DNA of 64,000 bases, taken from NCBI GenBank assembly GCA_013348725.1, contig CP054689.1, forward strand, positions 112,501 through 176,500. Reading direction: 5' to 3'. How positions within the stretch are numbered: position 1 is the stretch's first letter; every line of letters starts with the position of its first letter. This stretch comes from Ectothiorhodospiraceae bacterium 2226. Lineage in GTDB: Bacteria > Pseudomonadota > Gammaproteobacteria > GCA-013348725. A program made the position numbers and the translations under genes. The notes under the pieces are model-generated. The model had not been told where the DNA came from and did no database searches. It worked only from the letters and a program-made list of their open reading frames with translations. Of this stretch, positions 36,792-59,763 are shown one piece after another.

Positions 36792-37606
36792 CACTGCACC
36801 GCGAGGGCGCGCGCGCGCTCGTACACGGGGCTGCACAGATCGTGGATCATGGCCCGCTCGCGCGCGCTCAAGCGGGAGGCCTTGTTCACGCTCGAGCCGT
36901 GGACGCCGTCCGCGTACGCGGCACGGTACTCCAGACCGGCGAACGCAAACACCTGCGGCAACAGGCGCATCTTGTCGGCCACCAGCGCGTCGTAATCCAC
37001 CACCAACATGCGCTCCCCGAGCGCCGGTGCCAGTTCGAAGACCTGCGCGGCTTTGCCGCTGTAGCTCAGACAGGCGCGCTTGAGACGCCTCACGGCCAGG
37101 TGCCCGAGCCGCCCCCCCAGCCAGTCATAACGGCGACGCGCGGGACCGTCCAACCGCGCCGCGCCGCATCCGCGGAACAACTCGTTGAGGCCGAAACTGC
37201 GCCAGTTGTAGAGCAACGAGTAGACCACCGAGTACGGGTTACGCACCACCCAGATCAGCCGGAAATCCGCGCCCTCTTGCAGGCTGGCGGCATATTCGCC
37301 GTACCGCTCGTTGAGGTAAGTGGTCTGAAAACAATGCCGACCGGCGACCTCATGCGGCACGGCACCGGCGAGGATCAGCGCGGCATCCAGCTCATCGTCG
37401 CGCCCGAAGCGGAAGTCGACCAACTCGGGCGCCTCGTTCAGGACGCGCGTCAGCATGGTCGTGCCGGAGCGCTGACACCCCGCCACCAGGACCGTGTCCC
37501 TGAACTCCCCGAGCCGGCGCAACAGCGGCCCGTCCTTGGCCCGCACTTGGCGGCCGAACTGTTGCCACGTCGTTATTTGCTGCACTCCCCCCAGTAGAAG
37601 CACCAC
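36791..37606 (-). CDS. Sulfotransferase (PAPS-dependent), copy 1
   Basis: Predicted to transfer sulfate from PAPS to a carbohydrate hydroxyl. The 271-residue product has the 5'-phosphosulfate-binding loop GCQRSGTT at 43-50 after a beta strand (FRDTVLVA) and the 3'-phosphate region IWVVRNPYSVVYSLLYNW with Arg and Ser suitably placed. The C-terminal part (LPQVFAFAGLEY) resembles the usual carbohydrate sulfotransferase end. It is coupled to a glycosyltransferase on each side (overlap of one base downstream; 18-base gap upstream). Start codons near 37606 are GTG GTG, preceded by GGGAGGGGA. The acceptor is unknown. Confidence 0.82.
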   Translation of the reverse strand: MVLLLGGVQQITTWQQFGRQVRAKDGPLLRRLGEFRDTVLVAGCQRSGTTMLTRVLNEAPELVDFRFGRDDELDAALILAGAVPHEVAGRHCFQTTYLNERYGEYAASLQEGADFRLIWVVRNPYSVVYSLLYNWRSFGLNELFRGCGAARLDGPARRRYDWLGGRLGHLAVRRLKRACLSYSGKAAQVFELAPALGERMLVVDYDALVADKMRLLPQVFAFAGLEYRAAYADGVHGSSVNKASRLSARERAMIHDLCSPVYERARALAVQ

Positions 37607-37624: not shown

Positions 37625-38818
37625 TCATCCGATATTCGCGCGAGTCCTCGCGACGCGCGCGGACCGTACCATGGCCCGTTCGTAGACCTCGACATAACGC
37701 TCGGCGATCACCCGCCAGCTGTACCCCGCGGCGTGCCGCTGCGCCGCCTGCCCCATCGCCGCACGGGCATCATCGTCCCGCAACACGCGCAACATGGCCT
37801 CTGCCAGGGCCACCTCGTCGCGCGGCGGCACCAGGAGGCCGTTGTCGCCATGGCGCACCACGTCGCGGTTTCCGGAGATGGCGCTCGCCACCACCGGCTT
37901 GGCGGCCGCCATCGCATCGAGCACCGCCAGCGACAGGCCCTCGGCGCCTTCGCTGACCCCGGCCGACACGTAAGCCTGCGCACCGCGATAAAGCTCCGCG
38001 AGTACGTCCTCCTCTGCCGAAGGCAACGGCGGCAAAGGCCCGAGCAACAACACCCGCCCCTGCAGCCCGTGGCGCGCCACGAGATCGGCGAGCACGGCGG
38101 TGTCGCGCCCGACTATCACCAGGCGCGCGCGAGGTTCGTGCTCGATGACGCGCGCCATGGCCGCGACCGCGACCTCGTGACCCTTGCGGGGATTGTAGTT
38201 GCCGACACTGAGCAGGAACTTGTCCTCGGGCGCCAACCCCAGGCGCGACAGTAGGTCGGGGCGCCGGGGACGCCGGAAACGCTCCAGGTCGACGCCGTTG
38301 GGTACGCGGTAGATCCGCTCGCGCGGTGCGCCCGCATCATGCAGCGATACCTCGATCGCCTCGCTGATCGCGGTGATCGCATCGGCCCGGTGCAGAGCCT
38401 GCCCGATCTTGTCACGCAGATGCGGGCGCAGCCGCAGCCCATGACCCAACTCGGGGATCACGTGGATATCCGCGCCGTGCGGCGTGATTACCAGCGGTAC
38501 GCGGCGCATGTGCTTGATGAGGCTCGCGCGGTAGCCGGCCGGATAGGTCGCGTGCGCATGAATCACGTCACAGCCGCGCAGCGCCACGTCCAGGCCCAGC
38601 TGCGCCACCCGCACCGGCCCCTGCAACACCCGTCCCAGCCCGGGGTAGCGGTGCACGGGATATTCGGTGCGCACACCCGCGTTACGCCACCATCCCGAGG
38701 CGCCGAGCACACGCACCTCGTGCCCCAGCCCCTGCAGGGCCCGCGCAAGCTGATGCACCACCAACTCGCGACCGCCCACATTGGGCAGAAACGAATTGAC
38801 GTAGAGCGCGATGTTCAT
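37625..38818 (-). CDS. Glycosyltransferase family 4 protein
   Basis: A 397-residue canonical GT4: MNIALYVNSFLPNVGGRELV at the start, CDVIHAHATYPAGYRASLIK, VPLVITPHGADIHVIPELGH, then ISEAIEVSLHDAGAPRERIY and VPNGVDLERFRRP at the domain junction. In the C-domain, FLLSVGNYNPRKGHEVAVAA and GAEGLSLAVLDAMAAAKPVV give the EX7E-like donor site. The stop of the upstream sulfotransferase copy 2 overlaps its start (ATGA). The donor sugar is not predictable. Confidence 0.88.
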   Translation of the reverse strand: MNIALYVNSFLPNVGGRELVVHQLARALQGLGHEVRVLGASGWWRNAGVRTEYPVHRYPGLGRVLQGPVRVAQLGLDVALRGCDVIHAHATYPAGYRASLIKHMRRVPLVITPHGADIHVIPELGHGLRLRPHLRDKIGQALHRADAITAISEAIEVSLHDAGAPRERIYRVPNGVDLERFRRPRRPDLLSRLGLAPEDKFLLSVGNYNPRKGHEVAVAAMARVIEHEPRARLVIVGRDTAVLADLVARHGLQGRVLLLGPLPPLPSAEEDVLAELYRGAQAYVSAGVSEGAEGLSLAVLDAMAAAKPVVASAISGNRDVVRHGDNGLLVPPRDEVALAEAMLRVLRDDDARAAMGQAAQRHAAGYSWRVIAERYVEVYERAMVRSARVARTRANIG

Positions 38819-39723
38819 GGCTCCACACCCGCGCGCGGGTCGGCGTAGCCGAAGTGGTCGAGCATCTGCGCGGCGTGGCGGCGCACGGTCTCCACCTCCT
38901 CGTGGGTAAGCCGGGCAAGACTCGCGCGGTCCATGTCCTGCACGGGGATGCGTAACGACCCCGACCAGCTCCGGCCGCAGAAGCGCGCAATGTCCTTGAG
39001 CGCGGTCTCGGGCCGCTGCGCGATGTCCTCGTAACGCACCGCGAGAAATTTATCCACGCCGCGCGCATCCTCAAGCATCACGCGGTTCACGGTATTCCAG
39101 TGGGCGGCCGCCCGCGCCAGCGGCTTCTTGCCCCGCCGGCGGATACTGTCCGATACCGCGTAGCCGTTGCGCACCAGGCCGATGAAGTAGCTGCGCGGAA
39201 ACACTTCTTGCAGCCATTGCATGCGCACGGCATTGGCCGGCGTCTTCTCGATGATCATGCGATCGACGTCCTCGCCCAGCGTATGCATCCAGTCATGCAC
39301 CAGGCGCGGCGCGACCTCGGGTTGCTCGCCCGGGCGCATGCGAAACTTGTCGAGGCGTTCGGTCCACACGCGCCGGATTGCCCGCTCGCCGCCGCGCGTC
39401 AACGCCAGCGTCGCCATGCGCCCCTCCTGCTCGAAGCCGCACACCCCGTCCAGCTCGTTCAGCAACGTGCGCAGCAGGGTCGTTCCCGAGTTGTTGCAGC
39501 CGACGATGAAGCACCACTCGTGCGCGCCGGCGACATCCGCGTAGTGGCGCTCGAAGAAACGACGCCCGCCACCCACGTGCCAGGACAGCGCCCGTTCGAA
39601 GTCCCCCCACGCCTGCCCCCCCTGGCGCAGCAGCCGCCGCACGCCCTGATCCACGCGCGCCGCGAGACCGCTGCCGCGACGGGGCGCTAGCGGCATCCCC
39701 CGTTGTGTTTTCGCCGTCGCCAT
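38815..39723 (-). CDS. Sulfotransferase (PAPS-dependent), copy 2
   Basis: A 302-residue protein with the phosphosulfate loop GCNNSGTT at 75-82, following EWCFIV, and the 3'-phosphate region YFIGLVRNGYAVSDSIRRRG. Asn-Asn replaces the more usual Arg/Lys-containing loop of copies 1 and 3. ERLDKFRMRPGEQPEVAPRL and IIEKTPANAVRMQWLQ are typical of the Sulfotransfer_3 group. The ATG at 39723 has AGAGGA upstream; the longer in-frame extension is low-complexity, basic and likely untranslated. It is coupled to the next glycosyltransferase. It is not closely similar to copies 1 or 3, so it probably sulfates a different position or sugar. Confidence 0.8.
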   Translation of the reverse strand: MATAKTQRGMPLAPRRGSGLAARVDQGVRRLLRQGGQAWGDFERALSWHVGGGRRFFERHYADVAGAHEWCFIVGCNNSGTTLLRTLLNELDGVCGFEQEGRMATLALTRGGERAIRRVWTERLDKFRMRPGEQPEVAPRLVHDWMHTLGEDVDRMIIEKTPANAVRMQWLQEVFPRSYFIGLVRNGYAVSDSIRRRGKKPLARAAAHWNTVNRVMLEDARGVDKFLAVRYEDIAQRPETALKDIARFCGRSWSGSLRIPVQDMDRASLARLTHEEVETVRRHAAQMLDHFGYADPRAGVEP

Positions 39724-39970
39724 GCATTCCTCTCGCTTGCTTTCACGTCCTTGTGACTCGTCCTCCCGCCGCGCATGACTCGGCTCGCCGGTTTGGCGCT
39801 GAACGAGCGGTGGAACACAGAGGGGACTGAGTCGGCGTTGTCTGTACGACAACCTATTGTCATTGTGGCCCGCCCAACTGCGGCGGGCATGCACGTCCCC
39901 GCGGGCCGCGCGTTTCCTGCTGTGAGAATAGCAGCGCCCCTTAGCGATGCCAGGCGCCTAAGGGATCACC

Positions 39971-41155: not shown

Positions 41156-42130
41156 TCAACGCGCCGACACGAAGCGCAAGCCGTGCCACCAGCCGCCCCA
41201 TGCCCGTCGCTGGAAAGCCAGCCAATGCACCCCGTCGCGCAGCTTCAGCGCCTGCATCGCCGCAGCACCCAGGCGCCAGTGCGGGATATTGGGAAACTCG
41301 CGCGCGTAGCCCAACTCATCGAGCAGCGGCCCGCACAGGCCCTCGATCTGACGCCGCGTACGTTCCGCCATGTCGCGCTGGAAACGACCGGCGTTGTCGC
41401 TCACCACACCTTTCTGACCCTGAGCCCAACCGAGGTTCTCCGAGGGGCGCTTGAGCTGCACCCGCGCGGGGTCGAACGGCGCTCCCAGGAAAGCCACCAC
41501 GCGCGCCACCTCGCGTTCCGGGTCACGGACCAGGTCCTCGTAACGCAGCTCAAGATAGCGTTCTGACCCGATCGCACGACCCACTCGCCGCGCGGCCGAC
41601 ACTGCATCGAACCACCGCTGAGCGGTACGCAGTTTGTGCTTGCCCCAGGCACGTTCCGCCGACAGAGCCACATCGCGCGGATCGCGCACGATGTGCACGA
41701 AGCGACTCGCGGGGAAGTGGCGCGCGATCACGTCCAAGCGCTCGACGTGGGCCGGGGACTTGTCGCCCCACCGCAGCCGCTGCCATGGTCCGGCCGGCGC
41801 GCCCTCGCGCGCGTACAGGGCGCGGAACAAACCCTCCAACACCTGCGGCATGCGATAGCCCGGACATTGCGCGTACCACTCTTCCGCGGTGGGGGCGACG
41901 CCCTCGCTCTCCCAGTACCAGTAGGCCTTGGTGCGCGCCATATCCTGCGCGAGGCGTTGGAAGTTGCGGCGCTCGGCGAGATCGCCATACGTCCGCGCCC
42001 GCGTCAGGAAGTGCGGAAAGAAGTTGGTCTCCCCGTCGGGGATCCACAACCCAGGCTGCTGCTTGATGAGCGCGCGCAGCAGCTTGGTGCCCGAGCGCGG
42101 GGTTCCGGTGACAAAGAACGGAGCGCTCAT
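41156..42130 (-). CDS. Sulfotransferase (PAPS-dependent), copy 3
   Basis: A 324-residue Sulfotransfer_3-type enzyme. The phosphosulfate loop is GTPRSGTK at 9-16, the 3'-phosphate region RFVHIVRDPRDVALSAERAW, and a conserved RWGDKSPAHVERLDVIARHF lies between. LELRYEDLVRDPEREVARVV is a further family block. Length and motifs are normal. It overlaps the upstream glycosyltransferase by four bases (ATGA). It is closer to general carbohydrate sulfotransferases than copies 1 and 2. The acceptor is unknown. Confidence 0.85.
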   Translation of the reverse strand: MSAPFFVTGTPRSGTKLLRALIKQQPGLWIPDGETNFFPHFLTRARTYGDLAERRNFQRLAQDMARTKAYWYWESEGVAPTAEEWYAQCPGYRMPQVLEGLFRALYAREGAPAGPWQRLRWGDKSPAHVERLDVIARHFPASRFVHIVRDPRDVALSAERAWGKHKLRTAQRWFDAVSAARRVGRAIGSERYLELRYEDLVRDPEREVARVVAFLGAPFDPARVQLKRPSENLGWAQGQKGVVSDNAGRFQRDMAERTRRQIEGLCGPLLDELGYAREFPNIPHWRLGAAAMQALKLRDGVHWLAFQRRAWGGWWHGLRFVSAR

Positions 42131-43418: not shown

Positions 43419-43446
43419 ATTATGAGTTACGCGGCAATCGCGTCAC
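43419..43446 (-). promoter_or_regulatory. Candidate promoter for the 43.4-34.2 kb operon
   Basis: On the minus strand GTGACG (complement of 43441-43446) and CATAAT (complement of 43419-43424) are separated by 16 bases, matching -35 and -10 at four and five of six positions. It overlaps the stop codon of the preceding lyase-like gene. Confidence 0.35.
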
Positions 43447-44417
43447 CTGAGTATAGATAAGCTGCTGCGGTCTTGTACGATCTCGCACCGGACGCAGTTG
43501 TCCCCTTCGGGCTCGGCCTCACCGACCGGTTGCGCAGGTGCCGGTGAGACTTCGGCCGGCGGCGCGACGTCTACCGCTAGACCCTGCGGGGCAGCGGGGG
43601 TGCCACCGGTCGGCCCGTTCATGGTCGACACCGCCTCGAACTGATTGGAGCCCAGCGCCACCCGCAGGTCACCATAGTACAACGAGCGCTGATTGGTGTT
43701 GGTACGGCGGCTGCTCCAGCTCGGCTTGTAGATACCGATCTTCATGTTCGGACCCTTGCGGTCATTGAACATGGTGCGCGTGCGCTGCGACAGCACCTTC
43801 TCACCATCCTTCCAGATCTCGAGGATCCCGTCGGTCTGGTGGCTCCACTTGATCCGCATCACAAAGTGCGTCCAGCGGCCCGTCTCGTACGTGCCGAGCT
43901 TGCGCTGCACCCAACTCTGCCAGGGGCGGTCGTCGCGGCTGATGCACCGGCGCGAGTCGCCGACCGAGGTGACGATCCACGAGTCGTTGCGGATCGACAA
44001 GTTGAGGTTGGGCGCGCGCTGCGACGGGCAACCCGCGTCCGCGGCACCGTGAAACTGGAACAGGATGTCGTCTTCCGTATCCCGGTCGAACTTGTCCAAC
44101 CAAACCTTGAAGCCGTACCAGTACTCCTGCCCCGGAGAAGCGTTGCGGACATTATTGGGCACCATACCGCTGATGTGCACCAGCTCGGACCGGAACGAAA
44201 CGGGATCGTTGCGATTGAGCACGAAGCGCGCCGCCGTGCCATCACCGTCCGGCGCAGCCGTAACTGACGTGGTGTTGTTACCCGAGAATGCCCATTCGTT
44301 GATCTGCGAGAAATCGGTGTCGTAGATCACGTTCGCGCCCGCGCTCAAGGGCGCTGCAAGGGCCAGTACTGCCGCGGCCATCCATCCTTTACCAAACCGG
44401 CTTATTCCGCCTTTCAT
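43443..44417 (-). CDS. Secreted polysaccharide-lyase-like protein 1
   Basis: A 324-residue exported protein resembling the Polysacc_lyase/heparin-lyase-I-like jelly-roll family, which includes glucuronan lyases (PL20). The signal peptide is residues 1-28 (cut after SAGA). Fold blocks: FRSELVHISG near 75, EYWYGFKVWLDKF near 98, ILFQFHG near 118, GRWTHFVMRIKWS near 180, GILEIWKDGEKVL near 197 and KIGIYKPSW near 226. A Pro/Ala-rich tail of about 55 residues with two Cys (CVRC) follows. The ATG at 44417 follows GGGAG. The substrate is inferred to be the uronic-acid polymer of this locus; catalytic residues were not assigned. Confidence 0.7.
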   Translation of the reverse strand: MKGGISRFGKGWMAAAVLALAAPLSAGANVIYDTDFSQINEWAFSGNNTTSVTAAPDGDGTAARFVLNRNDPVSFRSELVHISGMVPNNVRNASPGQEYWYGFKVWLDKFDRDTEDDILFQFHGAADAGCPSQRAPNLNLSIRNDSWIVTSVGDSRRCISRDDRPWQSWVQRKLGTYETGRWTHFVMRIKWSHQTDGILEIWKDGEKVLSQRTRTMFNDRKGPNMKIGIYKPSWSSRRTNTNQRSLYYGDLRVALGSNQFEAVSTMNGPTGGTPAAPQGLAVDVAPPAEVSPAPAQPVGEAEPEGDNCVRCEIVQDRSSLSILR

Positions 44418-44549
44418 GTAGTCTCCCATCACCATGACCTGGATCGCGGGCCATGGTAATGAGCAGCAGACACTTGGAGCGGAACGGTTTCCCACTTCGC
44501 GCCCTAATCCGCCTTCTGGCGCCGCGACTTGGGAACCAGGTCGCGCGGA

Positions 44550-45524: not shown

Positions 45525-46430
45525 TCAATCGTCCGACACGGAGACCCGCAGATCGCGCGGCGCGTGCGGCTCCACCACCCTGGACGGCGGCGTATGCACC
45601 GGAATGGTGGACACCATGTCGAAGCTGCCGCGGTGATCGGCGATGCGCACTGCGCCGGCGTAGCTGGCGATCCGGTCAACATTGGTGCTCTGGTCCTGAC
45701 GCCAGCTGAACTTGTAGATCCCCATGGTGATCTTGGGCCCGCGATCGTCGTTGTAGGCATTCGGGCCGCGGTGATCCACCTTCAGCTTGCCGTCCTTCCA
45801 GATTCGCAGGAGGCCGCCCTGACCCTCGTCGTACGCCCACTTGACGTTGAACACGAAGTGGTGCCAACGCCCGAGCTCCTGCTCGCCCACCACAAACCGG
45901 TTCCATGTAGTGAAGGTCTTGTCGGTGCTGTACTTGCGCTTGTCCGACATGCTCAGTACCACCCAACGGCCATCGTCGGTCGAGCCTAAGGACAAGGGCG
46001 GATTGCCGTAGATCTCGAGCAGATTGCCGGCCGCGTCGCGATCCGGCGTGCGGCCCCACTGGAACCAGTTCTCGCCGCGCACGTCAGGCTCATGCTCGTC
46101 GAGCCAGATGCTGAACCCGTACCAGTACTCCTTGCCGATCTCCGCGTTGCGCACTTCCGGGTGAACCTCATCGGAAATGAAGACGATCTCCGAGCGGTAC
46201 AGGCTGCCGTTGCTGCTGTCACCGTGCTCGATCTCGAAGTAGGCGGCTTTGCCGTACCCGTCCGGCGAGGGCTTGATCCGTGTGGTGGTATTGCCGTGAT
46301 GGCGCCACTCGGGCTCCAGAGACTCGAAATCGGTCTTGTAAAGCAACTGCGCATGGACCTGGGACGCACCCAGCATCATAGCGCCCGCGCACAGCGCGCT
46401 TGTCCATAGCCTTGAATGTGGGTACCTCAT
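45525..46430 (-). CDS. Secreted polysaccharide-lyase-like protein 2
   Basis: A 301-residue exported paralogue of the 43.4 kb protein. The signal peptide is residues 1-27 (cut after VHA). Shared fold blocks: LYRSEIVFIS near 77, EYWYGFSIWLDEHEP near 101, ENWFQWGRTPD near 120, GRWHHFVFNVKWAY near 187, GLLRIWKDGKLKVDH near 206, GPKITMGIYKFSW near 231. It lacks the Pro/Ala tail of the first copy. AGAGGA lies just upstream of the ATG. Overall similarity to copy 1 is moderate, so the duplication is old and substrates may differ. Confidence 0.7.
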   Translation of the reverse strand: MRYPHSRLWTSALCAGAMMLGASQVHAQLLYKTDFESLEPEWRHHGNTTTRIKPSPDGYGKAAYFEIEHGDSSNGSLYRSEIVFISDEVHPEVRNAEIGKEYWYGFSIWLDEHEPDVRGENWFQWGRTPDRDAAGNLLEIYGNPPLSLGSTDDGRWVVLSMSDKRKYSTDKTFTTWNRFVVGEQELGRWHHFVFNVKWAYDEGQGGLLRIWKDGKLKVDHRGPNAYNDDRGPKITMGIYKFSWRQDQSTNVDRIASYAGAVRIADHRGSFDMVSTIPVHTPPSRVVEPHAPRDLRVSVSDD

Positions 46431-49426: not shown

Positions 49427-51817
49427 ATGGGGTCGCGCCCAAGGGTCGCCGCGCGGGGACTGACGTCCCTACTTATTCCTTTCTTTCTGTCGACGCTAGT
49501 CGCCTGCGGAGGCTCTGACAGCAGTTCCCCGCCCACGTCGGGCCCGCCATCGACCGGCGAAGTTCATACTCTTACGCTTACCCGCGGCTCCAACCATGAG
49601 GGCATTCTGCCCGGCGAGGGCGCCGCGCCGCTGCAGTACGCAATCGCAACGCAACCCGGTGCGGGCAGGGTTTACTTGCTAGACCCCGGGCAAGGGCGGT
49701 ATCGGTACATCCCCGACGCCGTGTTCTGGGGCGAAGACAGCTTCGAGTACCGCGTCACCGACGCCCATGGACGCACGACGGCGGCAACCATGGCTATCAC
49801 GGTGGAACGTGCCGAGGCCCTCTTCAATGCGACCTTTCCCGCAGGCGGTCTACCGGACGGATGGGTGCAGGCGAATCCGGTGGACGTGGTCGACGGCAGC
49901 ACCTACCCCTACCAATGGCGCGGTGAAGACGGGAAGCGCATACGCCAGACGTACGCGAATGACGTCTTCCGCGCCAGCCGCGGTCTTGCCGGCGGACACT
50001 CGCTGGGCGGCGTGGTGTGGTGGGCCGACGGCGTTCGTTGGGAGGACTATCGCTTCGAGGCCGACGTGGAACCGCCTGAGCACGGCGGCGAGGTCGGCCT
50101 CGTGTTTCGCGTCCAAGACCAGGATGTGGACTACCGGCTCAGCCTGAGCGCGCAGTCCACGTTCATCCGCCTGGAGCGGCGCGAGGGCGCGCCCACCGAT
50201 GAGCAGTCCGTCCCCTGGACGCCGCTGGCCACCAGTGCCCGCGGCTACCAGCACGGGCCCTTGCAGCTGACCGTCGACGTGCGCGGTCCGCTCATCCGCG
50301 TGTTCGTCGACGGCGTGGAGACCCTTACCGTGCGGGACGAGGATCCGCTACTGAGCGGCAGCATCGGCCTCTACGCGCGCCACCAGGCCTCGTTCGACAA
50401 CGTGCGCATCGAAACGCTTGCCGAGCGGCCGTCAATCGCGGTGACCCATCCGCAACCCTTCACAACCGTCAGCGGCCCCCTTCTGCGCGTCGAGGGCGCG
50501 CTCGCCGATGCGCCCTCCGCGGCCGAGGTCCGCATCCAGCTCCGCGAGGCCGCCGGCGGTCGCCTCATCGCGCAAGCCACGCGTCCCGCGGAGGCGGAAA
50601 GCTTCGCGGCGGACTTCGGCGGCCTACCGGCCGGCGACGCCATCCTCGACGTCGAACTGCTTCTCGACGGCGAAGTGCTAGCGTTCACCACGCGCGAGAT
50701 CGGGCTGAACGGCAAGACCTGGCTCGCGGTGGGCGACTCCATCCACAACGGCCATGGTGACAACTTTCCCGCCGACAATCGCACCTCGGAGGGGCGCATG
50801 ATCGGCACGCGCGGCATGGGTGCCGTGCTGGCCGAAGCCCTGAGCGTGCGGGGCCTGCCCACCGTGGTCATGAACGAGGCGGTGCCGGGCGACGAGTCCG
50901 ATCATACCGCCAAGCGCATCCACCACTACGTGGAACGCCACGCCGCGGCCGACGCGATCCTGCTGCTGGTCGGCACCAACGACGCTGGCGCAGCGACCGA
51001 GGGCCGCACCGCGAGCCACTACCGCATCCGCATTCGCCGCATCGTCGATACGGTGCTATCGATGAGCGGCCCCCCGATCCTGGCGGCGCGCGTGCCGCCG
51101 CGCTTTGGCGACCGCGCCGAAACGGTGCCCTACTCCGATCCCCACAACCACCCGCGCAATGTCAGCACGCGCGAATACAACGCGGTGCTGGACCAGGAAG
51201 GACTCCCGGGACCCGACCTCTATCATTTCTTCATTCAGGGCGGGCGCGTGAGCTTGTACGCCGACAATACCCACCCAAACAGCCTCGGTCACCGCATACT
51301 CGCCGCTTTGTGGCAACGCGCTCTCGCCGACGTCAACGCGCCGCTGCCGTTCTTCGTGGACAGTCTGGAGCCCTTCGGTTACCGCCAGGACCTTCGGCGC
51401 GTCGACGATCCGGTGTATGTGCGCCATCTACAAAACGCAGACGGCGCGGGATACCTCGTGCACGACGACGGCGCACGCCTGCGTGCACGACCGAGCTTTC
51501 TTGAACGTGGCATTTGGATACTCCCCGACAGCGGAGCCTCTGCGAATATGAACGGAACGGGGATGCGCTTCACCCTCGACCGCCCCGCCACCGTCTATGT
51601 CGCCTACGACGCCAACGCCTCCATCGTGCCTACGTGGCTAAACGACGCGTTTGCGCCTACTGGCGACACCGTCCGTACGACCGACGGCATTCTCACCCTT
51701 TGGCAGCAACGTATCGAGCAGCCGGGCGAAGTGAGCCTTGGCGCTAATCGCGCTGACGGTGCTTCTGGCGCGATGCAGTACCTGGTCATTGTGGTGCCGA
51801 GCCAGGACGTCTGGTAA
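49427..51817 (+). CDS. SGNH-hydrolase lipoprotein 1 (catalytic residues intact)
   Basis: A 796-residue outer-membrane lipoprotein, acylated at Cys27 (STLVAC, then Gly-Gly). Order of parts: cadherin-like/Big_9 repeat at about 45-128 (YRYIPDAVFWGEDSFEYRVT); a concanavalin-like beta-sandwich at about 130-330 (VGLVFRVQDQDVDYRLSL, SIGLYARHQASFDNVRIE); an Ig-like module to about 425; an SGNH/GDSL hydrolase at about 430-640; a C-terminal beta-sandwich from 690. Hydrolase block I GDSIHNG (Ser438), block II Gly488, block III GTND (Asn518) and block V DNTHPNSLGH (Asp613, His616) are all present, so esterase or deacetylase activity is likely. ATG at 49427 is preferred to GTG at 49409. It probably acts on an ester on the surface polysaccharide. 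Confidence 0.78.
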   Translation: MGSRPRVAARGLTSLLIPFFLSTLVACGGSDSSSPPTSGPPSTGEVHTLTLTRGSNHEGILPGEGAAPLQYAIATQPGAGRVYLLDPGQGRYRYIPDAVFWGEDSFEYRVTDAHGRTTAATMAITVERAEALFNATFPAGGLPDGWVQANPVDVVDGSTYPYQWRGEDGKRIRQTYANDVFRASRGLAGGHSLGGVVWWADGVRWEDYRFEADVEPPEHGGEVGLVFRVQDQDVDYRLSLSAQSTFIRLERREGAPTDEQSVPWTPLATSARGYQHGPLQLTVDVRGPLIRVFVDGVETLTVRDEDPLLSGSIGLYARHQASFDNVRIETLAERPSIAVTHPQPFTTVSGPLLRVEGALADAPSAAEVRIQLREAAGGRLIAQATRPAEAESFAADFGGLPAGDAILDVELLLDGEVLAFTTREIGLNGKTWLAVGDSIHNGHGDNFPADNRTSEGRMIGTRGMGAVLAEALSVRGLPTVVMNEAVPGDESDHTAKRIHHYVERHAAADAILLLVGTNDAGAATEGRTASHYRIRIRRIVDTVLSMSGPPILAARVPPRFGDRAETVPYSDPHNHPRNVSTREYNAVLDQEGLPGPDLYHFFIQGGRVSLYADNTHPNSLGHRILAALWQRALADVNAPLPFFVDSLEPFGYRQDLRRVDDPVYVRHLQNADGAGYLVHDDGARLRARPSFLERGIWILPDSGASANMNGTGMRFTLDRPATVYVAYDANASIVPTWLNDAFAPTGDTVRTTDGILTLWQQRIEQPGEVSLGANRADGASGAMQYLVIVVPSQDVW

Positions 51818-51852
51818 CCGCTCCGGCGACGGGCACAAACTTCCGCCTGTCG

Positions 51853-51950
51853 CTTGCAGGCAACGGTTCTTCATCTACTTTCTAAGAAGACCGCGCGTAC
51901 GCGAAGTTGGCTCTATGGGTCTGGGACGCGGCCCGCCCATGAGAACAAGA
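51853..51950 (+). repeat. Leader repeat copy A upstream of SGNH-like lipoprotein 2
   Basis: About 95 bases sharing roughly three quarters identity with 54546-54640. The best-kept parts are TTCTTCATCTACTTT and TTGGCTCTATGGGT. The second ends 99 bases before the gene start, close to the matching distance in the other copy. Confidence 0.7.
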
Positions 51951-52018
51951 AAGCGAGACTCTCGTAGGACTCGTTCGGTCACCACAACGCTGTTCGAATA
52001 ATGACATGGAGGTACACC

Positions 52019-54223
52019 ATGGTTTACCCAGGGAGCAAGACCTTGTTGGCGCTCGCCATCACTTCCTTTCTCGCCGTCGGTTGCGGCGGTGGCAGTGGAA
52101 GCGCCAGCAATCCGGACAACAACCCGCCCTCGGACACTAACGACCCGCCGTCGGACAACAACGAACCCCCGGTCGACGACGGCACCCCACCGGTCAACGA
52201 CGATCCCGACGGCCAACAGCCGGGCGAGGAACTTCCGGACGAACACGACAGCGAGAACCGCACCTGGGTACCGGTCAACGACTCTGCCTACCGCGGCGAG
52301 CTGACGTGGGTGATCGACGACAACGGCGAGTTCCGCCAGACCGCGCACGTCTCAAACCGCTATCAGGCACCGCGTTCATACGCCCATAGCTTCCACCGCG
52401 GCTCGTTCCTGTATCTGCGCGAGGATGAGCCCCGCGCCGACTTCGATTTCTCCACGGTGGCGACGCTGGGCGACGAGCAGGGCCTCGGCGTCATGTTCCG
52501 CTACCAGCGCAGCGAGGACGGCACCCAGGAGTCTTACTACCGGGTCTCGATGAGTCCGCGCTGGGGTTTCACCCGGTTCGAGAAGCGCATCGATAACCGC
52601 TGGGAATCGATCGCGGTCCGAAACATCGGCCATCAACCCGGCGACGACATCGAGATCCGCGCCGTGGGACAGGGGCCCGTGGTGATGGTTTATATCGATG
52701 GCGAACCGATGTTCAGCCACTACGACACCGATCTCATGGATGGTACGGTCGCACTGTACTCACAGGGCCATGCCACGTTCCGCGACGTGCAGCTAGCCGA
52801 TGTCCAGGACGCGCCCGCCGTTGTCATCTCAGTGCCCGTCAACGATACCGTTTCCAGCCATTTCACCCGTGATGGAACCATGACGGTGCGTGCGCACGTG
52901 ATCAACGCGCCGAACGCCGAGGTGGACATCGCGCTGAACGGCGTCGGACCGGCGACGACCCGAACCGATCACGACGGCAACACCTTTACCGCCCAATTCG
53001 ACCCGGTGGACACGGGAGATTACGAGCTCGTCGCCACGCTCAGCGTCGATGGTACCGTCGTGAGCACCCACACGGTATCCAACATCGGCGTGGGTCGCCA
53101 TTACATCAGCATCGGCGACGGCGTGACCGCGGGCTCTGGAGACGAGTATATGGCCGACAACGTCACGGCCGACGGACGCATGATGGCCACCGGCGGCATG
53201 CAGGCGAATCTGGCCACTAGCCTGTCCGCGGCCGAAGGCGTGCCCGTGACGGTGTTCAACGAGGCTATCCCCTCCTTGTCCTCAGCGGAAGCGAGTCACG
53301 CCAACTTCGTGAACTACGTCCTCAGTCGTTACACTGACCCGCTGCGAGCGACCGACCCATTGCGAAACGGCGACGTCGACGGCGTGCTTCTCCTACTCGG
53401 CGCTACGGATGTGGGCAACCACCTCTCGCCGGCCGACTTCGAGGCCAATGTACAGACCTTCGTCAACCGGGCGGGCGAGTACCGCGACGTGCACATCGCC
53501 ACCGCGATGCCCGTGATTCCGGCCGAGGGCGATCTCAGCCCGGCCGCGATTGACAGCTTCGGATTGAACGCCGAATACATCCAGCCCTACAACGACGCCA
53601 TCCGAAGCATCGCGGCGGGCGACACGCGGGCGTTCGTCGGCCCCGACTTGTACCAGCTGTTCCGCGACTATCCCGACCTGTATGACCGCAGCCGCCCCAG
53701 CCCGAACGCCGGCTACAAGCACCCCAACAGTTTGGGCCATGCGATGATGGGCGAATGTTGGTCGCAGTACCTGCAGGGACAGCAGAACTGCTCGCCCAAC
53801 ATCCTGCTCGGGGGCCTTACCCATGGCCTGGAGCAGAACCTGGTTGAGGTCGGCGGCCGCTATTACGTGGATACGGATGCGCGTGTAACGGCGCTGCCGA
53901 GTCTGCTGGAGGGTGGCATCTGGGTCAAAACGCGTGACAGCGCCAAGGACAGCGCGGCGGCCGAGGCCGTAAGCTTCACGGTTCCGGCAGCCGCCACGGT
54001 GTACGTGGGCTACGCCGCCGGAACGGATGCAGCGGACCGCCCCGCCTGGCTGAACGATGGCTTCACCCCGACCGGGGAGACCGTCGCCACCAGCGGCGGC
54101 GCAGACCTCGATCTGTTCGCGGCCAGCTATGGCGCGGGCCAGACCGTCACCCTCGGCGGCAACCGCGCGGGCGACGTGGCGGGCGGCGCCAACAACTATG
54201 TCGTGATCGTCGCGCCCCAATAA
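52019..54223 (+). CDS. SGNH-like lipoprotein 2 (catalytic residues lost)
   Basis: A 734-residue outer-membrane lipoprotein (signal MVYPGSKTLLALAITSFLAV, acylated Cys22). A Pro/Asp/Asn-rich linker to about 80 precedes a concanavalin-like domain (80-262; LGVMFRYQRSEDGTQESYYR), an Ig-like domain (265-358), an SGNH-fold domain (360-595) and a C-terminal beta-sandwich (625-734). Compared with lipoprotein 1, GDS is GDG (Gly368), GTND is GATD (Thr463) and the Asp of DxxH is Gly565, though His568 and PNSLGH stay. Nucleophile, oxyanion Asn and catalytic Asp are thus all missing, so it is predicted to be non-catalytic, possibly glycan-binding. The ATG at 52019 has GGAGG upstream. Confidence 0.78.
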   Translation: MVYPGSKTLLALAITSFLAVGCGGGSGSASNPDNNPPSDTNDPPSDNNEPPVDDGTPPVNDDPDGQQPGEELPDEHDSENRTWVPVNDSAYRGELTWVIDDNGEFRQTAHVSNRYQAPRSYAHSFHRGSFLYLREDEPRADFDFSTVATLGDEQGLGVMFRYQRSEDGTQESYYRVSMSPRWGFTRFEKRIDNRWESIAVRNIGHQPGDDIEIRAVGQGPVVMVYIDGEPMFSHYDTDLMDGTVALYSQGHATFRDVQLADVQDAPAVVISVPVNDTVSSHFTRDGTMTVRAHVINAPNAEVDIALNGVGPATTRTDHDGNTFTAQFDPVDTGDYELVATLSVDGTVVSTHTVSNIGVGRHYISIGDGVTAGSGDEYMADNVTADGRMMATGGMQANLATSLSAAEGVPVTVFNEAIPSLSSAEASHANFVNYVLSRYTDPLRATDPLRNGDVDGVLLLLGATDVGNHLSPADFEANVQTFVNRAGEYRDVHIATAMPVIPAEGDLSPAAIDSFGLNAEYIQPYNDAIRSIAAGDTRAFVGPDLYQLFRDYPDLYDRSRPSPNAGYKHPNSLGHAMMGECWSQYLQGQQNCSPNILLGGLTHGLEQNLVEVGGRYYVDTDARVTALPSLLEGGIWVKTRDSAKDSAAAEAVSFTVPAAATVYVGYAAGTDAADRPAWLNDGFTPTGETVATSGGADLDLFAASYGAGQTVTLGGNRAGDVAGGANNYVVIVAPQ

Positions 54224-54243
54224 ACACGTCGAGTTGGACCCTT

Positions 54244-54270
54244 ACCCCGGCTTCGGCCGGGGTCCTTTAT
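54244..54270 (+). terminator. Terminator after SGNH-like lipoprotein 2
   Basis: ACCCCGGC, loop TTCG, GCCGGGGT, then CCTTTAT. An eight-pair stem with a stable UUCG tetraloop, about 20 bases after the stop codon. Confidence 0.75.
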
Positions 54271-54709
54271 TGCCGGCGCAAGCTCGACACATCTTTGACG
54301 CTAAGGCGGCGGCGCCAAGGAATCCGGAGTACCTGCCCCGGATCGCATTCTTGCATCCGCCACCCCACTCATACGATCCACGGCCCCCGTTGTCGTTAAG
54401 CCAACACGTCCGCTCCACGGACCACAGTGGAGGTCGGTTCCACTCCATGCCGATCTGCACGCGCTGCAGTCGTCTCATTACGCCCAGGTGGTGGTCTGCC
54501 AAGAGTTTGGCCATCTATCGGGGGCCGCTGGAACACCGACACTGCGGTTGCAGGAACGTCTTCTTCATCTACTTTTTAGTAAAGACTGCGCCTGCGTGAA
54601 ATTGGCTCTATGGGTCCGCGATGAGGCGTGCCCCAAGAACGCGAGCGAGCAGTCCTATCATCGCTCATCGATAACCACAAGGAAGTTCACTAAGCGTATG
54701 GAGGGAACC
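54271..54709 (+). other. Intergenic region upstream of SGNH-like lipoprotein 3
   Basis: About 440 bases. The downstream half holds leader repeat copy B. The part from 54271 to about 54540 shows no gene with a ribosome binding site; a 121-codon open frame starting at 54234 runs through the terminator and the repeat and looks spurious. Confidence 0.5.
54546..54640 (+). repeat. Leader repeat copy B upstream of SGNH-like lipoprotein 3
   Basis: Counterpart of 51853-51950, with TTCTTCATCTACTTTT and TTGGCTCTATGGGT; the latter ends 95 bases before the gene start. The duplication that made lipoproteins 2 and 3 therefore carried its upstream control region. Confidence 0.7.
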
Positions 54710-56905
54710 ATGGTCCACCCAGGGAGCAAAACCTTGTTGGCGATTGCCATCACTTCGTTTCTCGCCGTCGGGTGCGGTGGGGGGGGCAGTGACAACGGCA
54801 CCCCCAGCAACGATCCGCCGGCGTCGGATACCAACGAACCGCCGATCGACGACGGCGCACCGCCGGTCAACGATGACCCCGACGGGCAACAGCCGGGTGA
54901 GGAACTGCCGGGCGAACAAGACAGCGACAGCCGCACGTGGGTGCCGGTCAACGACTCCGGCTATCGCGGCGAACTGACGTGGGTGGTCGACGACAATGGA
55001 GTGTTCCGTCAGACCGCGCATGTCTCCAACCGCTATCAGGCGCCCCGCTCTTACGCGCATGGCTTCCACCGCGGTTCATTCCTGTACCTGCGCGAGGAGG
55101 ATCCGCGTGCGGACTTCGATTTTTCCACGGCTGCGACCCTTGGAGACGAGCAGGGACTCGGCGTCATGTTCCGCTACCAGCGCAGCGAAGACGGTGCGCG
55201 CGAGTCGTACTACCGTGTGTCGATGAGCCCGCGCTGGGGCTTCACCCGCTTTGAGAAGCGCGTCGACAATCGATGGGAACCGATCGCCGTGCGCAATATT
55301 GGTTATCAACCGGGCGACGAAGTGCGGATCCGCGCGGTCGGCCACGGCCCGGTGGTTATGGTGTACCTCGATGGTGAAGCGATGTTCAGCCATTACGATA
55401 CCAATCTCACCGAGGGCACCGTCGCGCTGTACTCGCAGGGGCACGCCACGTTCCGCGACGTAGTGATAGGGGATGCGCCTACCGAGCCCGCGGTGGTCGT
55501 CTCGGTCCCGGTAGCGGACTCCGTCTCCAGCCATGTTATGCGCGAGGAAACGATTACGGTGCGGGCGCACGTGATCAACGCCCCCGGTGCCGACGTCGAC
55601 ATCACGCTGAACGGTGCAACGCCGGCGAGGACCCGCGACACCCACGGGGGCAGCACCTTCGACGCCCAGTTCGACCCGGTGACAACGGGCGACCACGAGG
55701 TCGTCGCCACCCTCCGCGTGGGCGGCGCCGTGGTGGACAGCCACACGGTGTCGAACATCGGCGTTGGTCGCCATTACGTCAGTGTCGGCGACGGGGTGAC
55801 AGTCGGCTCCGGGGACGAGTACCGGGCCGACAACGTCACAGCCGACGGACGCATGATGGCCACAGGCGGCATGCAGGCCAATCTGGCCGCCAGCCTGTCC
55901 GCGGCCGACGGCGTGCCCGTGACGGTATTCAACGACGCTATCCCATCCTTGTCCTCGGCGGAAGCGAGTCACCCCAACTTCACGACGAACCTTCTCAGCC
56001 GTTACACGGATCCGATGCGCTCCGGCGACGCGTACCGCAAAGGGGACGTGGACGGCGTGCTCGCGCTGTTTGGGGCGACGGATGTGGGCACCGGGCTCTC
56101 GCCCGCGGCCTTCGAGGCCAATCTGCAGACCTTCGTCGATGCGGTCGCCAGATTCCGCGACGTGCACATTGCGACCGCGATGCCCGTGATTCCCCCTACT
56201 GGAGACCTGAGCCCCGGCACCATCGACAGCTACGGTCTGAACGTGAACTATATCCAACCCTACAACAACGCCATCCAACGCATCGCCGCGGGCCATGGGG
56301 GGACGTTCGTGGGGCCTGACCTTTACCAACTGTTCCGCGACTACCCCGGGTTGTATGATCGCAGCATCCTCAGCCGCTCGGGTGACATCGCTGGGCACAA
56401 GCACCCCAACAGCCTGGGCCATGCGATGATAGGAGAATGCTGGTCGCAGCATCTGCAGGGGCAGCAGTCCTGCTCGCCGGCGTTCCTGCTGGATAACCTG
56501 ACTCACGGCCTCGAGCAGAACGTCGTCGAGGTAGGCGGGCGATATTATGTGGATGACGACAATGCCAGCGTCCGCTCGGTGCCGAACGCGCTGTCAGGCG
56601 GCGTATGGGTCATGACCCGCGATGGCGATAAAGCGAGCGACGCGGGAGACGCGGTCAGCTTCACGATCCCTGCGACCTCCACGGTATACGTCGGGTATGC
56701 GGCAGATACCGCCGCGGCCGACCGCCCCGCCTGGCTTGCGGCGTTTGCCCCCACGGGCGAGACCATCGGCACTGACGGGGGAGCGGATCTCGCGCTGTAC
56801 TCGGCCGGCTATGATGCAGGGCAGACCGTCACCCTCGGTGGCAACCGGGCCGGCGGCGTGGCAGGCGGTGCCAACAACTACGTCGTGATCGTCGTACCCC
56901 AATAA
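54710..56905 (+). CDS. SGNH-like lipoprotein 3 (catalytic residues lost)
   Basis: A 731-residue lipoprotein that is a close tandem paralogue of lipoprotein 2 along its whole length. The lipid-anchored Cys is Cys22 and the domain order is the same: linker to 75, concanavalin-like 75-255, Ig-like 258-350, SGNH-fold 352-590, C-terminal beta-sandwich 620-731. The catalytic positions carry the same changes: GDG (Gly362), GATD (Thr457) and Gly562 for the Asp of DxxH, with His565 kept. Loss at three sites in both copies implies that loss came before the duplication. Two Cys (GEC and QSC, about 577 and 588) may form a disulfide, as in lipoprotein 2. Start ATG at 54710 with GGAGGGA upstream. Confidence 0.78.
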   Translation: MVHPGSKTLLAIAITSFLAVGCGGGGSDNGTPSNDPPASDTNEPPIDDGAPPVNDDPDGQQPGEELPGEQDSDSRTWVPVNDSGYRGELTWVVDDNGVFRQTAHVSNRYQAPRSYAHGFHRGSFLYLREEDPRADFDFSTAATLGDEQGLGVMFRYQRSEDGARESYYRVSMSPRWGFTRFEKRVDNRWEPIAVRNIGYQPGDEVRIRAVGHGPVVMVYLDGEAMFSHYDTNLTEGTVALYSQGHATFRDVVIGDAPTEPAVVVSVPVADSVSSHVMREETITVRAHVINAPGADVDITLNGATPARTRDTHGGSTFDAQFDPVTTGDHEVVATLRVGGAVVDSHTVSNIGVGRHYVSVGDGVTVGSGDEYRADNVTADGRMMATGGMQANLAASLSAADGVPVTVFNDAIPSLSSAEASHPNFTTNLLSRYTDPMRSGDAYRKGDVDGVLALFGATDVGTGLSPAAFEANLQTFVDAVARFRDVHIATAMPVIPPTGDLSPGTIDSYGLNVNYIQPYNNAIQRIAAGHGGTFVGPDLYQLFRDYPGLYDRSILSRSGDIAGHKHPNSLGHAMIGECWSQHLQGQQSCSPAFLLDNLTHGLEQNVVEVGGRYYVDDDNASVRSVPNALSGGVWVMTRDGDKASDAGDAVSFTIPATSTVYVGYAADTAAADRPAWLAAFAPTGETIGTDGGADLALYSAGYDAGQTVTLGGNRAGGVAGGANNYVVIVVPQ

Positions 56906-56958
56906 CCTCCTTCGAGGTTTTCCGCCTTACACCCCCGGCTTCAGCCGGGGGCTTCTTT
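56904..56958. terminator. Tandem terminators after SGNH-like lipoprotein 3
   Basis: First AACCTC, loop CTTC, GAGGTT with T residues after it (56904-56921); then CCCCCGGC, loop TTCA, GCCGGGGG and CTTCTTT (56932-56958). The second overlaps the 3' end of the kinase gene on the minus strand and may act for both strands. Confidence 0.7.
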
Positions 56959-58065
56959 CCCGTGATGGGACGGCCTCGGATCCGCCACCGCTGGATGCGC
57001 TTCGAACGCGGTGTGCAAGCCCACAGCATCGCGCAGGTGTTCGGCATCCCCCACCGAGAAGTCACGCGTCAGCACCATCGCCACCCTTTCCATGTAATAG
57101 ATGGCACGATAAAGATCGAGGCGTGCCAGGATTGCCGGGCGATCGACAGGATGATCGTCCAGCAGGCGATCAGCGGCCGCGACGATGGCTTCATGGGACA
57201 AGACGACATCGGGTCGCCAATACATATGCGCGAAGAAAAAAGCATGCATATCATGCAGCGCACTACGCCGACCGGCAGTATCCCAATCGACCACCCGCAA
57301 ATCTTCACCGCTCACGATGAAGTTCGGATGGACAAAATCACCATGTGAGAACGTCAACACGACTTCCTCGGCCGCGTTCGGCGCCACGAAGGCCGCGTCG
57401 ATTTCGTTAAGGTGCCGCTGGAGAAGCTCATACACTTCAGGGAAGGCATCCAAAACGTGCAGCTTCATACCCGCGCGAAGTTCGTCAACGTAGTCGCGCC
57501 CCCGGCGGCGCACCCAGGGCTTCAGCCGCAGCAGCTCTTTCAGGCAAGGCAGCACCATCCGGTCAAAGGACGCCAGCACCTCGTCCGCGCGGGAAGCCAA
57601 GAGCGACAGCCCCACCGCCCCTTCGATGTAGGACATCTCGCACCATTGGGCGGAGGCATTAATCTCACCGATGGCGGGCGCGAAGGAGACCGCGCGCAGC
57701 TCGTTCATTGTCTGCGCCCAAGCCTCGAACCTCGCCGCCGGGAGCTCGGGTCGGAATATCTGAGTGACGATCCCGCGCTCCAGATCGAACACCAGGTAGC
57801 CGCGCTGCACTGGATAAGCGAACTGGCCATACACCGGGAGGCGAATCACATTGCTCCCCGCAAAGGGGTGAGGCACGCGGATATGATGCAAGGCAAGGTC
57901 AACTAGGTTTCGAAGTCCAAGGTGACGAAGCAGCGACCCCTTCCCCGAGAGCAGGGGCACGATGGGATTGCCATCCAGGCACACGTATTGGTGGCGCATA
58001 CGCAAGAAGCGATACCCGCCCGTCACGCTTTGATAATCCGCCCCCTGTGCCGTCAGCCCGCGCAC
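56941..58065 (-). CDS. APH/choline-kinase-fold phosphotransferase
   Basis: A 374-residue protein with the kinase catalytic loop FSHGDFVHPNFIV (HGDxxxxN) near 254 and the metal-binding segment RVVDWDTAGRRSALHDMHA near 272, the APH superfamily pattern. The N-terminal half is less typical and no clear ATP-binding Lys motif was placed. A helical tail (IYYMERVAMVLTRDFSVGD) resembles APH-family ends. The start is GTG at 58065; a later ATG (23 residues in) is possible. Aminoglycoside resistance is unlikely in this setting; phosphorylation of a sugar or of choline/ethanolamine for polymer decoration is a better guess. It lies 10 bases downstream of a family 2 glycosyltransferase. Confidence 0.65.
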   Translation of the reverse strand: MRGLTAQGADYQSVTGGYRFLRMRHQYVCLDGNPIVPLLSGKGSLLRHLGLRNLVDLALHHIRVPHPFAGSNVIRLPVYGQFAYPVQRGYLVFDLERGIVTQIFRPELPAARFEAWAQTMNELRAVSFAPAIGEINASAQWCEMSYIEGAVGLSLLASRADEVLASFDRMVLPCLKELLRLKPWVRRRGRDYVDELRAGMKLHVLDAFPEVYELLQRHLNEIDAAFVAPNAAEEVVLTFSHGDFVHPNFIVSGEDLRVVDWDTAGRRSALHDMHAFFFAHMYWRPDVVLSHEAIVAAADRLLDDHPVDRPAILARLDLYRAIYYMERVAMVLTRDFSVGDAEHLRDAVGLHTAFEAHPAVADPRPSHHGKEAPG

Positions 58066-58075
58066 ATGCTAATGC

Positions 58076-59056
58076 CTACGCCGGCGTACGGCTTTTGGCC
58101 CGGCGCCCTAACCAGCGCATGACGTCCCGAGGTCGACGCGCGCGCGCCGCCGCCTCCGACAGCGAGGTCCAGGTGAAGCGCCAAGGACTGAACGGAACGC
58201 CGGCGGCCTGCAGCCGCTGACGGTGATGACGCAAGGCGTGTAGCTCGCCGTGGCGCAGGACATGACGGGCCAGCACGACATAGTAGCGCTCGTAAGCCCG
58301 GCGCAGCAGCCGCGCATATTCATCCGCATCGAACAGCCCCGGGCCGTATCGCAACAGCATGACGAGGTTCTCCACGGCGTTGGTGTTGAGCTTTGCCGCC
58401 ACGGTCGAGGTCTGCGACTCGTCGTGCAGTCGCGTACAAGTCAGTACCTGCGGCACGAAACCAAAGTCGGTCTTCTGCAGCAGGCGATGGCAAACCTCCA
58501 CGTCGGCATGCAGATAATTGGCGTCGTAGAAAGGCTGCTCCGACCGCACCAGGTCCGCGCGCAACATCAGGGAGGTCGGCGACCCAAACACGTACAAGCG
58601 CTTGCGGAACGTCTCGCGCGATATCTCACGCCCGTCGACGACGCGAGTTTCCGTGCCCAGCCCGTCACAGGCCACGTGCTGGCCCTTCAGTACGAAGGAC
58701 CCAATCACGCCCGCGCCGGGGTGGCGCTCACCCAATTCGACCATCTGGGACAGGCATTCCGGAAACAGGAAATCATCGGCGTGGAGCACTTTACAGTAGC
58801 GGCTCTGAAGGTCCATCTGACCGAGCGCGAAATTCCAGTTATCAATCAGAGGCAGAAAGCTCGGCGTGTCGACCACGCGAATGCGCGCATCGCGCCGCGC
58901 GTAATCCCGGGCGATACGCCCCGTGCCGTCGGTACTGGCGTTGTTGACGATAATGTACTCCCAGTCCCCGTAGGTCTGACCAAGAACCGACTCGATACAG
59001 GCGGCCAGGAACCGTTCGCCATTGTAGACCGGCGTGATGACACTGACCTTTGCCAT
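58076..59056 (-). CDS. Glycosyltransferase family 2 protein
   Basis: A 326-residue GT-A enzyme: VSVITPVYNGERFLAACIES at the start, IIVNNASTDGTGRIARDYAR, and the metal-binding acidic motif in KVLHADDFLFPECLSQM (HADD for DxD). HADVEVCHRLLQKTDFGFVP follows in the acceptor part. The ATG at 59056 has GGAGGTGAT just upstream, and the TGA within it is the stop codon of the upstream acyltransferase gene, so ribosome binding and termination overlap. The donor is unknown. Confidence 0.88.
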   Translation of the reverse strand: MAKVSVITPVYNGERFLAACIESVLGQTYGDWEYIIVNNASTDGTGRIARDYARRDARIRVVDTPSFLPLIDNWNFALGQMDLQSRYCKVLHADDFLFPECLSQMVELGERHPGAGVIGSFVLKGQHVACDGLGTETRVVDGREISRETFRKRLYVFGSPTSLMLRADLVRSEQPFYDANYLHADVEVCHRLLQKTDFGFVPQVLTCTRLHDESQTSTVAAKLNTNAVENLVMLLRYGPGLFDADEYARLLRRAYERYYVVLARHVLRHGELHALRHHRQRLQAAGVPFSPWRFTWTSLSEAAARARRPRDVMRWLGRRAKSRTPA

Positions 59057-59058
59057 AA

Positions 59059-59763
59059 TCACCTCCCCCCTCCGAGCGTACGAAGCTCCGTCTTTTGCGA
59101 CTTGGCCCCGCGCTGCTTGACGATCCGTGCCGGCACACCCGCCGCCACGCTGTGGGGCGGAACGTAGCCGCTGACCACGGCGCCGGCGCCGATGACCGCG
59201 CCCTCGCCGATATGGGCCCCGTCGAGAATGGTCGCGCCATAGCCGATCCAGGCGTCGTCCTCGATCAGGATGCCGCCGCGGGACGTCAGCGGCTGGTCGC
59301 GCATCGGAATCTCCGGGTCCATGGCGTGGTTATAGTTGTAAATGCCGCAATGGGGCGCGATCTGCACCCGCGCGCCGATGGTCAGTGGCCCGAGGTAGGC
59401 GCATAGCACGCAGCGTGCCTGTATCGAGGTTCCTTCACCGATCCGGACGCGCCCGCCTTGTCCCGTCTGCACGATAGTGTCGCGGTGGATGTGCGCGCCG
59501 TCCCCCACCATCACCTCCGCTCCACCCGCATCCCGAAAGATCAGGACCCGTTCGTCGACGAATACGTGTCGCCCCAGGCGCAGGTCGGAGTGCGCGAGTT
59601 CGGCGCTTGGGGCGTACCAGCCACAAGCATGGCGGCGCGCTAGCGCATGGCGTGCGTAGTATGGCCGCACCGGCCACGCTGCGAGCCCCATGGCTAGACG
59701 TCCCAACGCGCCTTGGCCGGCAAGGCCCATCCACCACCCGGTCCACAAACGGCGCACGCTCAT
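59059..59763 (-). CDS. Hexapeptide-repeat (LbH) acyltransferase
   Basis: A 234-residue WbbJ/maltose-acetyltransferase-type protein with many left-handed beta-helix hexapeptides (VGDGAHIHRDTIVQTGQGGR, IGEGTSIQARCVLCAYLGPL) and the C-terminal block WIGYGATILDGAHIGEGAVI, ending HSVAAGVPARIVKQRG. The likely catalytic His lies in YNYNHAMDPEIPM. It probably O-acetylates a sugar of the polymer, for which the SGNH lipoprotein would be an esterase partner. It is closely coupled to the downstream glycosyltransferase. Confidence 0.85.
   Translation of the reverse strand: MSVRRLWTGWWMGLAGQGALGRLAMGLAAWPVRPYYARHALARRHACGWYAPSAELAHSDLRLGRHVFVDERVLIFRDAGGAEVMVGDGAHIHRDTIVQTGQGGRVRIGEGTSIQARCVLCAYLGPLTIGARVQIAPHCGIYNYNHAMDPEIPMRDQPLTSRGGILIEDDAWIGYGATILDGAHIGEGAVIGAGAVVSGYVPPHSVAAGVPARIVKQRGAKSQKTELRTLGGGR

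Follow-up and report, generated by a model that had tools for sequence, protein, structure and literature searches.

Results

Three tandem lipoprotein genes in a polysaccharide cluster

We find three intact open reading frames in tandem on the forward strand of the 64,000-nucleotide stretch of DNA analysed here (the window), encoding lipoproteins 1, 2 and 3, which we also refer to as copies 1 to 3 (Table 1). By inspection, all three start with a signal peptide and a lipobox, LVAC in copy 1 and AVGC in copies 2 and 3, with the lipobox cysteine at C27, C28 and C22, respectively. All three share an architecture of CBM66-like, Ig-like, SGNH (GDSL esterase) and C-terminal beta domains, and in copy 1 the full order is lipobox Cys27, Big_9/cadherin-like, CBM66-like, Ig-like, SGNH and C-terminal beta domain; the three SGNH-architecture lipoproteins of the original prediction are therefore borne out. 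The frame of lipoprotein 2 is open from 52001 and GGAGG precedes 52019, which is probably the start; its residue numbers, including that of C28, are counted from 52001. Copies 2 and 3 share 77% identity with one another and 34% with copy 1, and no further copies were found in the same genome. Among the Pfam SGNH models, copy 1 matches both PF13472 (E=1.3e-14) and PF00657 (1.1e-9) above the cutoff, whereas copy 2 matches PF00657 alone (9e-4, below the cutoff) and copy 3 matches none.

Table 1. Positions in the window of the genes, domains, residues and non-coding elements described in the text.
Feature	Position	Strand	Remark
Lipoprotein-like protein, upstream in the window	29534-31390	+	618 aa, F5/8 type C domain
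Sulfotransferase-family protein	36791-37606	-	PF13469/PF00685
Sulfotransferase-family protein	38815-39894	-	PF13469/PF00685
Sulfotransferase-family protein	41156-42130	-	PF13469/PF00685
Polysaccharide lyase	43443-44495	-	PF14099
Polysaccharide lyase	45525-46430	-	PF14099
Lipoprotein 1 (copy 1)	49427-51817	+	796 aa, SGNH site intact
Non-coding leader, copy 2	51863-51948	+	conserved with copy 3
Lipoprotein 2 (copy 2)	52019-54223	+	734 aa counted from 52019, predicted SGNH pseudoenzyme
CBM66-like (LamG / PF06439-like) domain, lipoprotein 2, residues 89-264	52265-52792	+	Foldseek
SGNH-fold domain, lipoprotein 2, residues 366-592	53096-53776	+	identity to relatives, AF2 model
Gly374 (GGC) for catalytic Ser, block I, copy 2	53120-53122	+	against relatives
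Ser425 for block II oxyanion Gly, copy 2	53273-53275	+
Thr469 for block III oxyanion Asn, copy 2	53405-53407	+
GYKH for DxxH, copy 2	53711-53722	+	Gly571; His574 retained
Intrinsic-terminator-like hairpin after copy 2	54244-54263	+	8 pairs
Leader counterpart, copy 3	~54561-54633		79% identical over ~72 bases
Lipoprotein 3 (copy 3)	54710-56905	+	731 aa, predicted SGNH pseudoenzyme
Gly362 (GGG) for catalytic Ser, copy 3	55793-55795
Ser413 for block II oxyanion Gly, copy 3	55946-55948
Thr457 for block III oxyanion Asn, copy 3	56078-56080
GHKH for DxxH, copy 3	56393-56404
Intrinsic-terminator-like hairpin after copy 3	56932-56951	+	8 pairs
APH-family phosphotransferase	56941-58065	-	PF01636, between copy 3 and the glycosyltransferases
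Hexapep acyltransferase	59059-59763

The neighbouring genes listed in Table 1 are accompanied by glycosyltransferases, a methyltransferase and a UDP-glucose/GDP-mannose dehydrogenase, as well as by a Wzt_C-like neighbour that scores below the cutoff. The three sulfotransferase-family genes suggest a sulfated surface polysaccharide, and the two PF14099 lyases possibly edit the same polymer. Homologues of the lipoproteins elsewhere adjoin GT2 and GT4 genes, a sulfotransferase, an ABC-2 exporter and a UDP-sugar dehydrogenase; the Hexapep protein beside the homologue in L015 is 50% identical to that of the window, and the GT2 of L018 is 43% identical to the product of 58076-59062. The homologue in L022 lies among cytochromes and transporters, with no evident polysaccharide cluster.

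Catalytic residues

Copy 1 carries the motifs GDS, PGDES, GTND and DNTH, which place S438, G488, N518, D613 and H616 at its site, and by these residues it looks like an active sugar esterase. The corresponding motifs in copies 2 and 3 are GDG, PSLSS, GATD and G(Y/H)KH, with PNSLGH retained, so that the motif assignments made earlier for all three proteins hold. The original prediction had gone further and described all key catalytic residues of copies 2 and 3 as lost. This is right for the Ser, the Asn and the Asp, but overstated as a whole, because the catalytic His of block V is present in both (H574 in copy 2, H565 in copy 3). Conversely, the block II oxyanion Gly, which the prediction did not mention, is also gone, being replaced by Ser in both copies. 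Of the residues by which an active SGNH enzyme is recognised, copies 2 and 3 thus lack the nucleophile Ser, the block II Gly and the block III Asn, and keep the block V His.

Rarity of the losses among relatives

We compared these sites with the SGNH domains of 32 relatives, collected by scanning 84,980 species genomes and by whole-genome searches; most of the relatives are Gammaproteobacteria, and some come from records of Desulfosarcina, Myxococcota and Hydrogenedentota. Both Ser and Asn are retained in all 33 of the other SGNH domains (copy 1 and the 32 relatives), and the His is kept in every one of them in which block V is present, one domain ending before that block. The Asp, in contrast, is absent from three relatives that have Ser, Asn and His (L014_3256, L015_3434 and L049), and many CE2 enzymes are also without it (PMC9487903; PMC2661963); we therefore rejected Asp loss as a sign of inactivity. 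A few of the remote relatives likewise have another residue at the block II Gly, which leaves the losses of Ser and Asn as the diagnostic ones. Positions that are invariant among the intact relatives are altered more often inside the motif blocks (5/10) than elsewhere (8/67; Fisher p = 0.010), in a small test for which the blocks were picked with the losses in view, and invariant residues outside the blocks have also changed, as in R436F and H444Y.

A profile of copies 2 and 3 run against 398 genomes of the phylum at E 1e-20 found nothing beyond their own genome, and draws of 369 and 368 genomes from the class returned the same loci and no further copy with a dead site; order-level searches covered only one to three genomes each, and a plasmid search gave one weak LamG-type match. 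Using tblastn, lipoprotein 2 aligns with L012 across 90-737 (E=2e-76). In a tree that tested whether copy 1 is the sister of copies 2 and 3, the branches were long (1.68 each). The SGNH protein also occurs as tandem pairs in other genomes, namely L014, L015, L018 and L021, and in L014 and L015 one member of the pair is without the DxxH Asp, yet Ser, Asn and His are present.

Selection on copies 2 and 3

Copies 2 and 3 are under purifying selection after the catalytic loss. Between these two paralogues of one genome, which share the catalytic losses, dN is 0.13-0.15 and dS 0.8-1.6, giving an omega of 0.17 (NG86, bootstrap range 0.14-0.22), 0.18 (LWL85) or 0.08 (ML). The original prediction had proposed selection and not decay, and had named a dN/dS near one as the result that would speak for decay; the observed values of 0.08-0.18, the intact frames and the conserved leaders speak for selection and against decay. 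When partitioning the proteins by domain, we observe the strongest constraint on the CBM66-like domain (dN/dS 0.06-0.09), with the SGNH domain at 0.21 (NG86). The NG86 dS per domain is 0.67-1.16, and there is therefore no sign of recent gene conversion. At three of the altered site positions the two copies differ in codon while encoding the same residue, namely Gly374 (GGC/GGG), Gly571 (GGC/GGG) and Ala468 (GCT/GCG).

Copies 2 and 3 are each organised as a unit of leader, Shine-Dalgarno sequence, open reading frame and GC-rich terminator-like hairpin, with a ribosome site in front of each copy. Their upstream regions (51818-52030 and 54480-54721) align with 78% mean column identity. The leader has no match of comparable score elsewhere in the genome, a search of the cluster's other genes for a common leader motif gave nothing, and no sigma-70-like promoter was found at the leaders of copies 2 and 3. 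The leader is a possible regulatory element.

Domains and structural models

Copies 2 and 3 are homologous to the SGNH domains of the relatives across residues 366-592. Their mean identity to the intact relatives over this domain (0.33 and 0.31, respectively) is near that of copy 1 (0.37), which argues that the SGNH fold is maintained; for the CBM66-like domain it is 0.34 in all three copies. The AlphaFold2 models have a mean pLDDT of 76.2 for copy 2 and 75.5 for copy 1, and in the former two segments fall at pLDDT <50: residues 376-382, which form the block I loop, and residues 447-457, an insert that precedes block III.

For the models of both copy 1 and copy 2, the top PDB matches include the CBM66 fold, with a TM of 0.73-0.82 by target length; for the N-terminal domain of copy 2, Foldseek gives 0.76-0.80 by target length against 4azz/4b1m. 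There is also a profile match to the CBM66 of levanase (4azz; E=2e-4), although at ~16% identity, from which ligand specificity is not to be assumed. CBM66-like folds can bind other ligands, or none. Profile searches pair the SGNH domain with esterases and the C-terminal domain with the C-terminal region of a GH2 beta-glucuronidase, 6hpd (E=2.3e-7); a sequence search of the PDB with copy 1 alone gave no match. We also observe two giant proteins with CBM66-like repeats, one of 3618 aa with 13 repeats (L030, open reading frame from 9698) and one of 3030 aa with 11 (L036, from 4072).

Discussion

Lipoproteins 2 and 3 as predicted pseudoenzymes

In the SGNH lipase SrL, replacing the Ser, the Asn or the His by Ala in each case abolishes activity (PMC10779480). 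Since copies 2 and 3 have lost both Ser and Asn, either of which inactivates SrL when lost singly, esterase activity of these copies is unlikely, and we infer that they are without it. The non-enzymatic state that had been proposed for them is, as far as residues can tell, well supported.

We consider it probable that lipoproteins 2 and 3 are SGNH pseudoenzymes that serve as surface glycan-binding proteins for the cell's own, probably sulfated, polysaccharide. Their ancestor would have been an esterase-type protein with a lipid anchor and CBM66-like, Ig-like, SGNH and C-terminal beta domains. Because every loss is common to both copies, the losses most simply predate the duplication: Ser, Asn, oxyanion Gly and Asp would have disappeared once, ahead of the tandem duplication that gave copies 2 and 3, and both would then have been retained by purifying selection as non-catalytic proteins. 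On the outer membrane, their presumed location, they may bind the polymer that the cluster around them makes, using both the CBM66-like domain and the emptied cleft of the SGNH domain, in which the His remains, and so hold or organise it at the surface, where lipoprotein 1, and perhaps also the two polysaccharide lyases, would edit it. That copies 2 and 3 bind a glycan, and that this ligand is the product of the cluster, is plausible, and polymer binding would suit proteins that have a CBM66-like fold, keep the His and are encoded in such a neighbourhood. A narrower version, which we put forward only tentatively, is that the emptied SGNH site, with the His alone left, is itself the glycan-binding site of a pair of lectin-like lipoproteins for the cell's own sulfated polymer.

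Alternatively, in copies 2 and 3 the SGNH domain could be a spacer or a protein-interaction module, one that, for example, partners or regulates lipoprotein 1 or the lyases, with any glycan binding left to the CBM66-like domain alone. The lower dN/dS of the CBM66-like domain relative to the SGNH domain agrees with this, as does the occurrence of the plant protein ERMO3/MVP1 in protein complexes (PMC3498303), but the His and PNSLGH kept in an emptied site would then need another reason and there is no known partner, and we regard this explanation as unlikely. Somewhat harder to sustain is the idea that copies 2 and 3 are still enzymes that use a relocated set of residues, for example a Ser of PSLSS with the retained His, on a polysaccharide ester or another bond. 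In favour of this, His574 and PNSLGH are retained, both copies have S425, S427 and S428, and purifying selection persists on the SGNH domain; however, nucleophile and oxyanion-hole Asn are both missing, the loss of either one being enough to inactivate SrL (PMC10779480), and S428 is not new, because many intact relatives have it as the Ser of GDES.

The original prediction had also mentioned a decoy, and enzyme-shaped surface lipoproteins within a capsule-type cluster would suit such a role, for instance against phages or foreign esterases that attack an acylated polymer; we consider it very improbable, given that it has no positive evidence, that a defence-family library gave no match and that the low dN/dS carries no sign of an arms race. 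Finally, the loss of several catalytic residues might suggest decaying paralogues on their way to becoming pseudogenes, which is effectively ruled out by a dN/dS of 0.08-0.18 at a dS of 0.8-1.6, by frames free of stops and frameshifts, and by the conservation of lipobox, Shine-Dalgarno sequence, leader and terminator-like hairpins.

Comparison with known systems

SGNH pseudoenzymes are already known in plants. ERMO3/MVP1/GOLD36 of Arabidopsis (At1g54030) resembles copies 2 and 3 in having Gly in place of the catalytic Ser and in retaining a biological role: it carries Gly at position 59, and restoring the Ser is irrelevant to that role (PMC3498303, PMC4757993). Unlike copies 2 and 3, it belongs to the plant vacuole/ER and acts in ER morphology, and no CBM66-like module has been reported for it. 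The SGNH-like acetyltransferases CASD1 and NXPE1 are also without the canonical Gly and Asn, but in contrast to copies 2 and 3 they are active and still have Ser and DxxH (PMC12216134). A bacterial SGNH pseudoenzyme in a polysaccharide cluster was not found in the open-licence literature that we searched, outside which most subscription journals lie. SGNH domains of polysaccharide clusters are usually taken as esterases or acetyltransferases, and the residues indicate that two of the three described here should not be.

For the preferred reading, in which copies 2 and 3 bind the polymer, the closest comparisons concern binding. The Bacillus subtilis levanase CBM66 (4azz, 4b1m) shares its fold with the N-terminal domains of lipoproteins 1 and 2, at the low identity given above. 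The CE2 acetyl esterase CtCE2 of Clostridium thermocellum likewise joins a beta domain to an SGNH-type esterase domain, and its esterase cleft can serve as a non-catalytic glycan site that binds cello-oligosaccharides (PMC2661963). There the His matters and loss of the Ser improves binding: affinity for cellohexaose goes up ~8-fold in S612A and down ~20-fold in H791A (PMC2661963). By analogy with these mutants, a lost Ser beside a kept His, the state of copies 2 and 3, is what would be predicted for a switch to binding. CtCE2 differs in being an active esterase in which Ser and Asn are retained, in having as its beta domain a CE2 jelly roll that is not known to be CBM66-like, and in belonging to a cellulase, whereas copies 2 and 3 are lipoproteins presumed to serve the cell's own polysaccharide. 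Overall, if copies 2 and 3 are binders, one intact and two emptied copies in a single genome would constitute a natural test of the passage from an esterase site to a glycan-binding site, a conversion that the CtCE2 mutants suggest may be possible.
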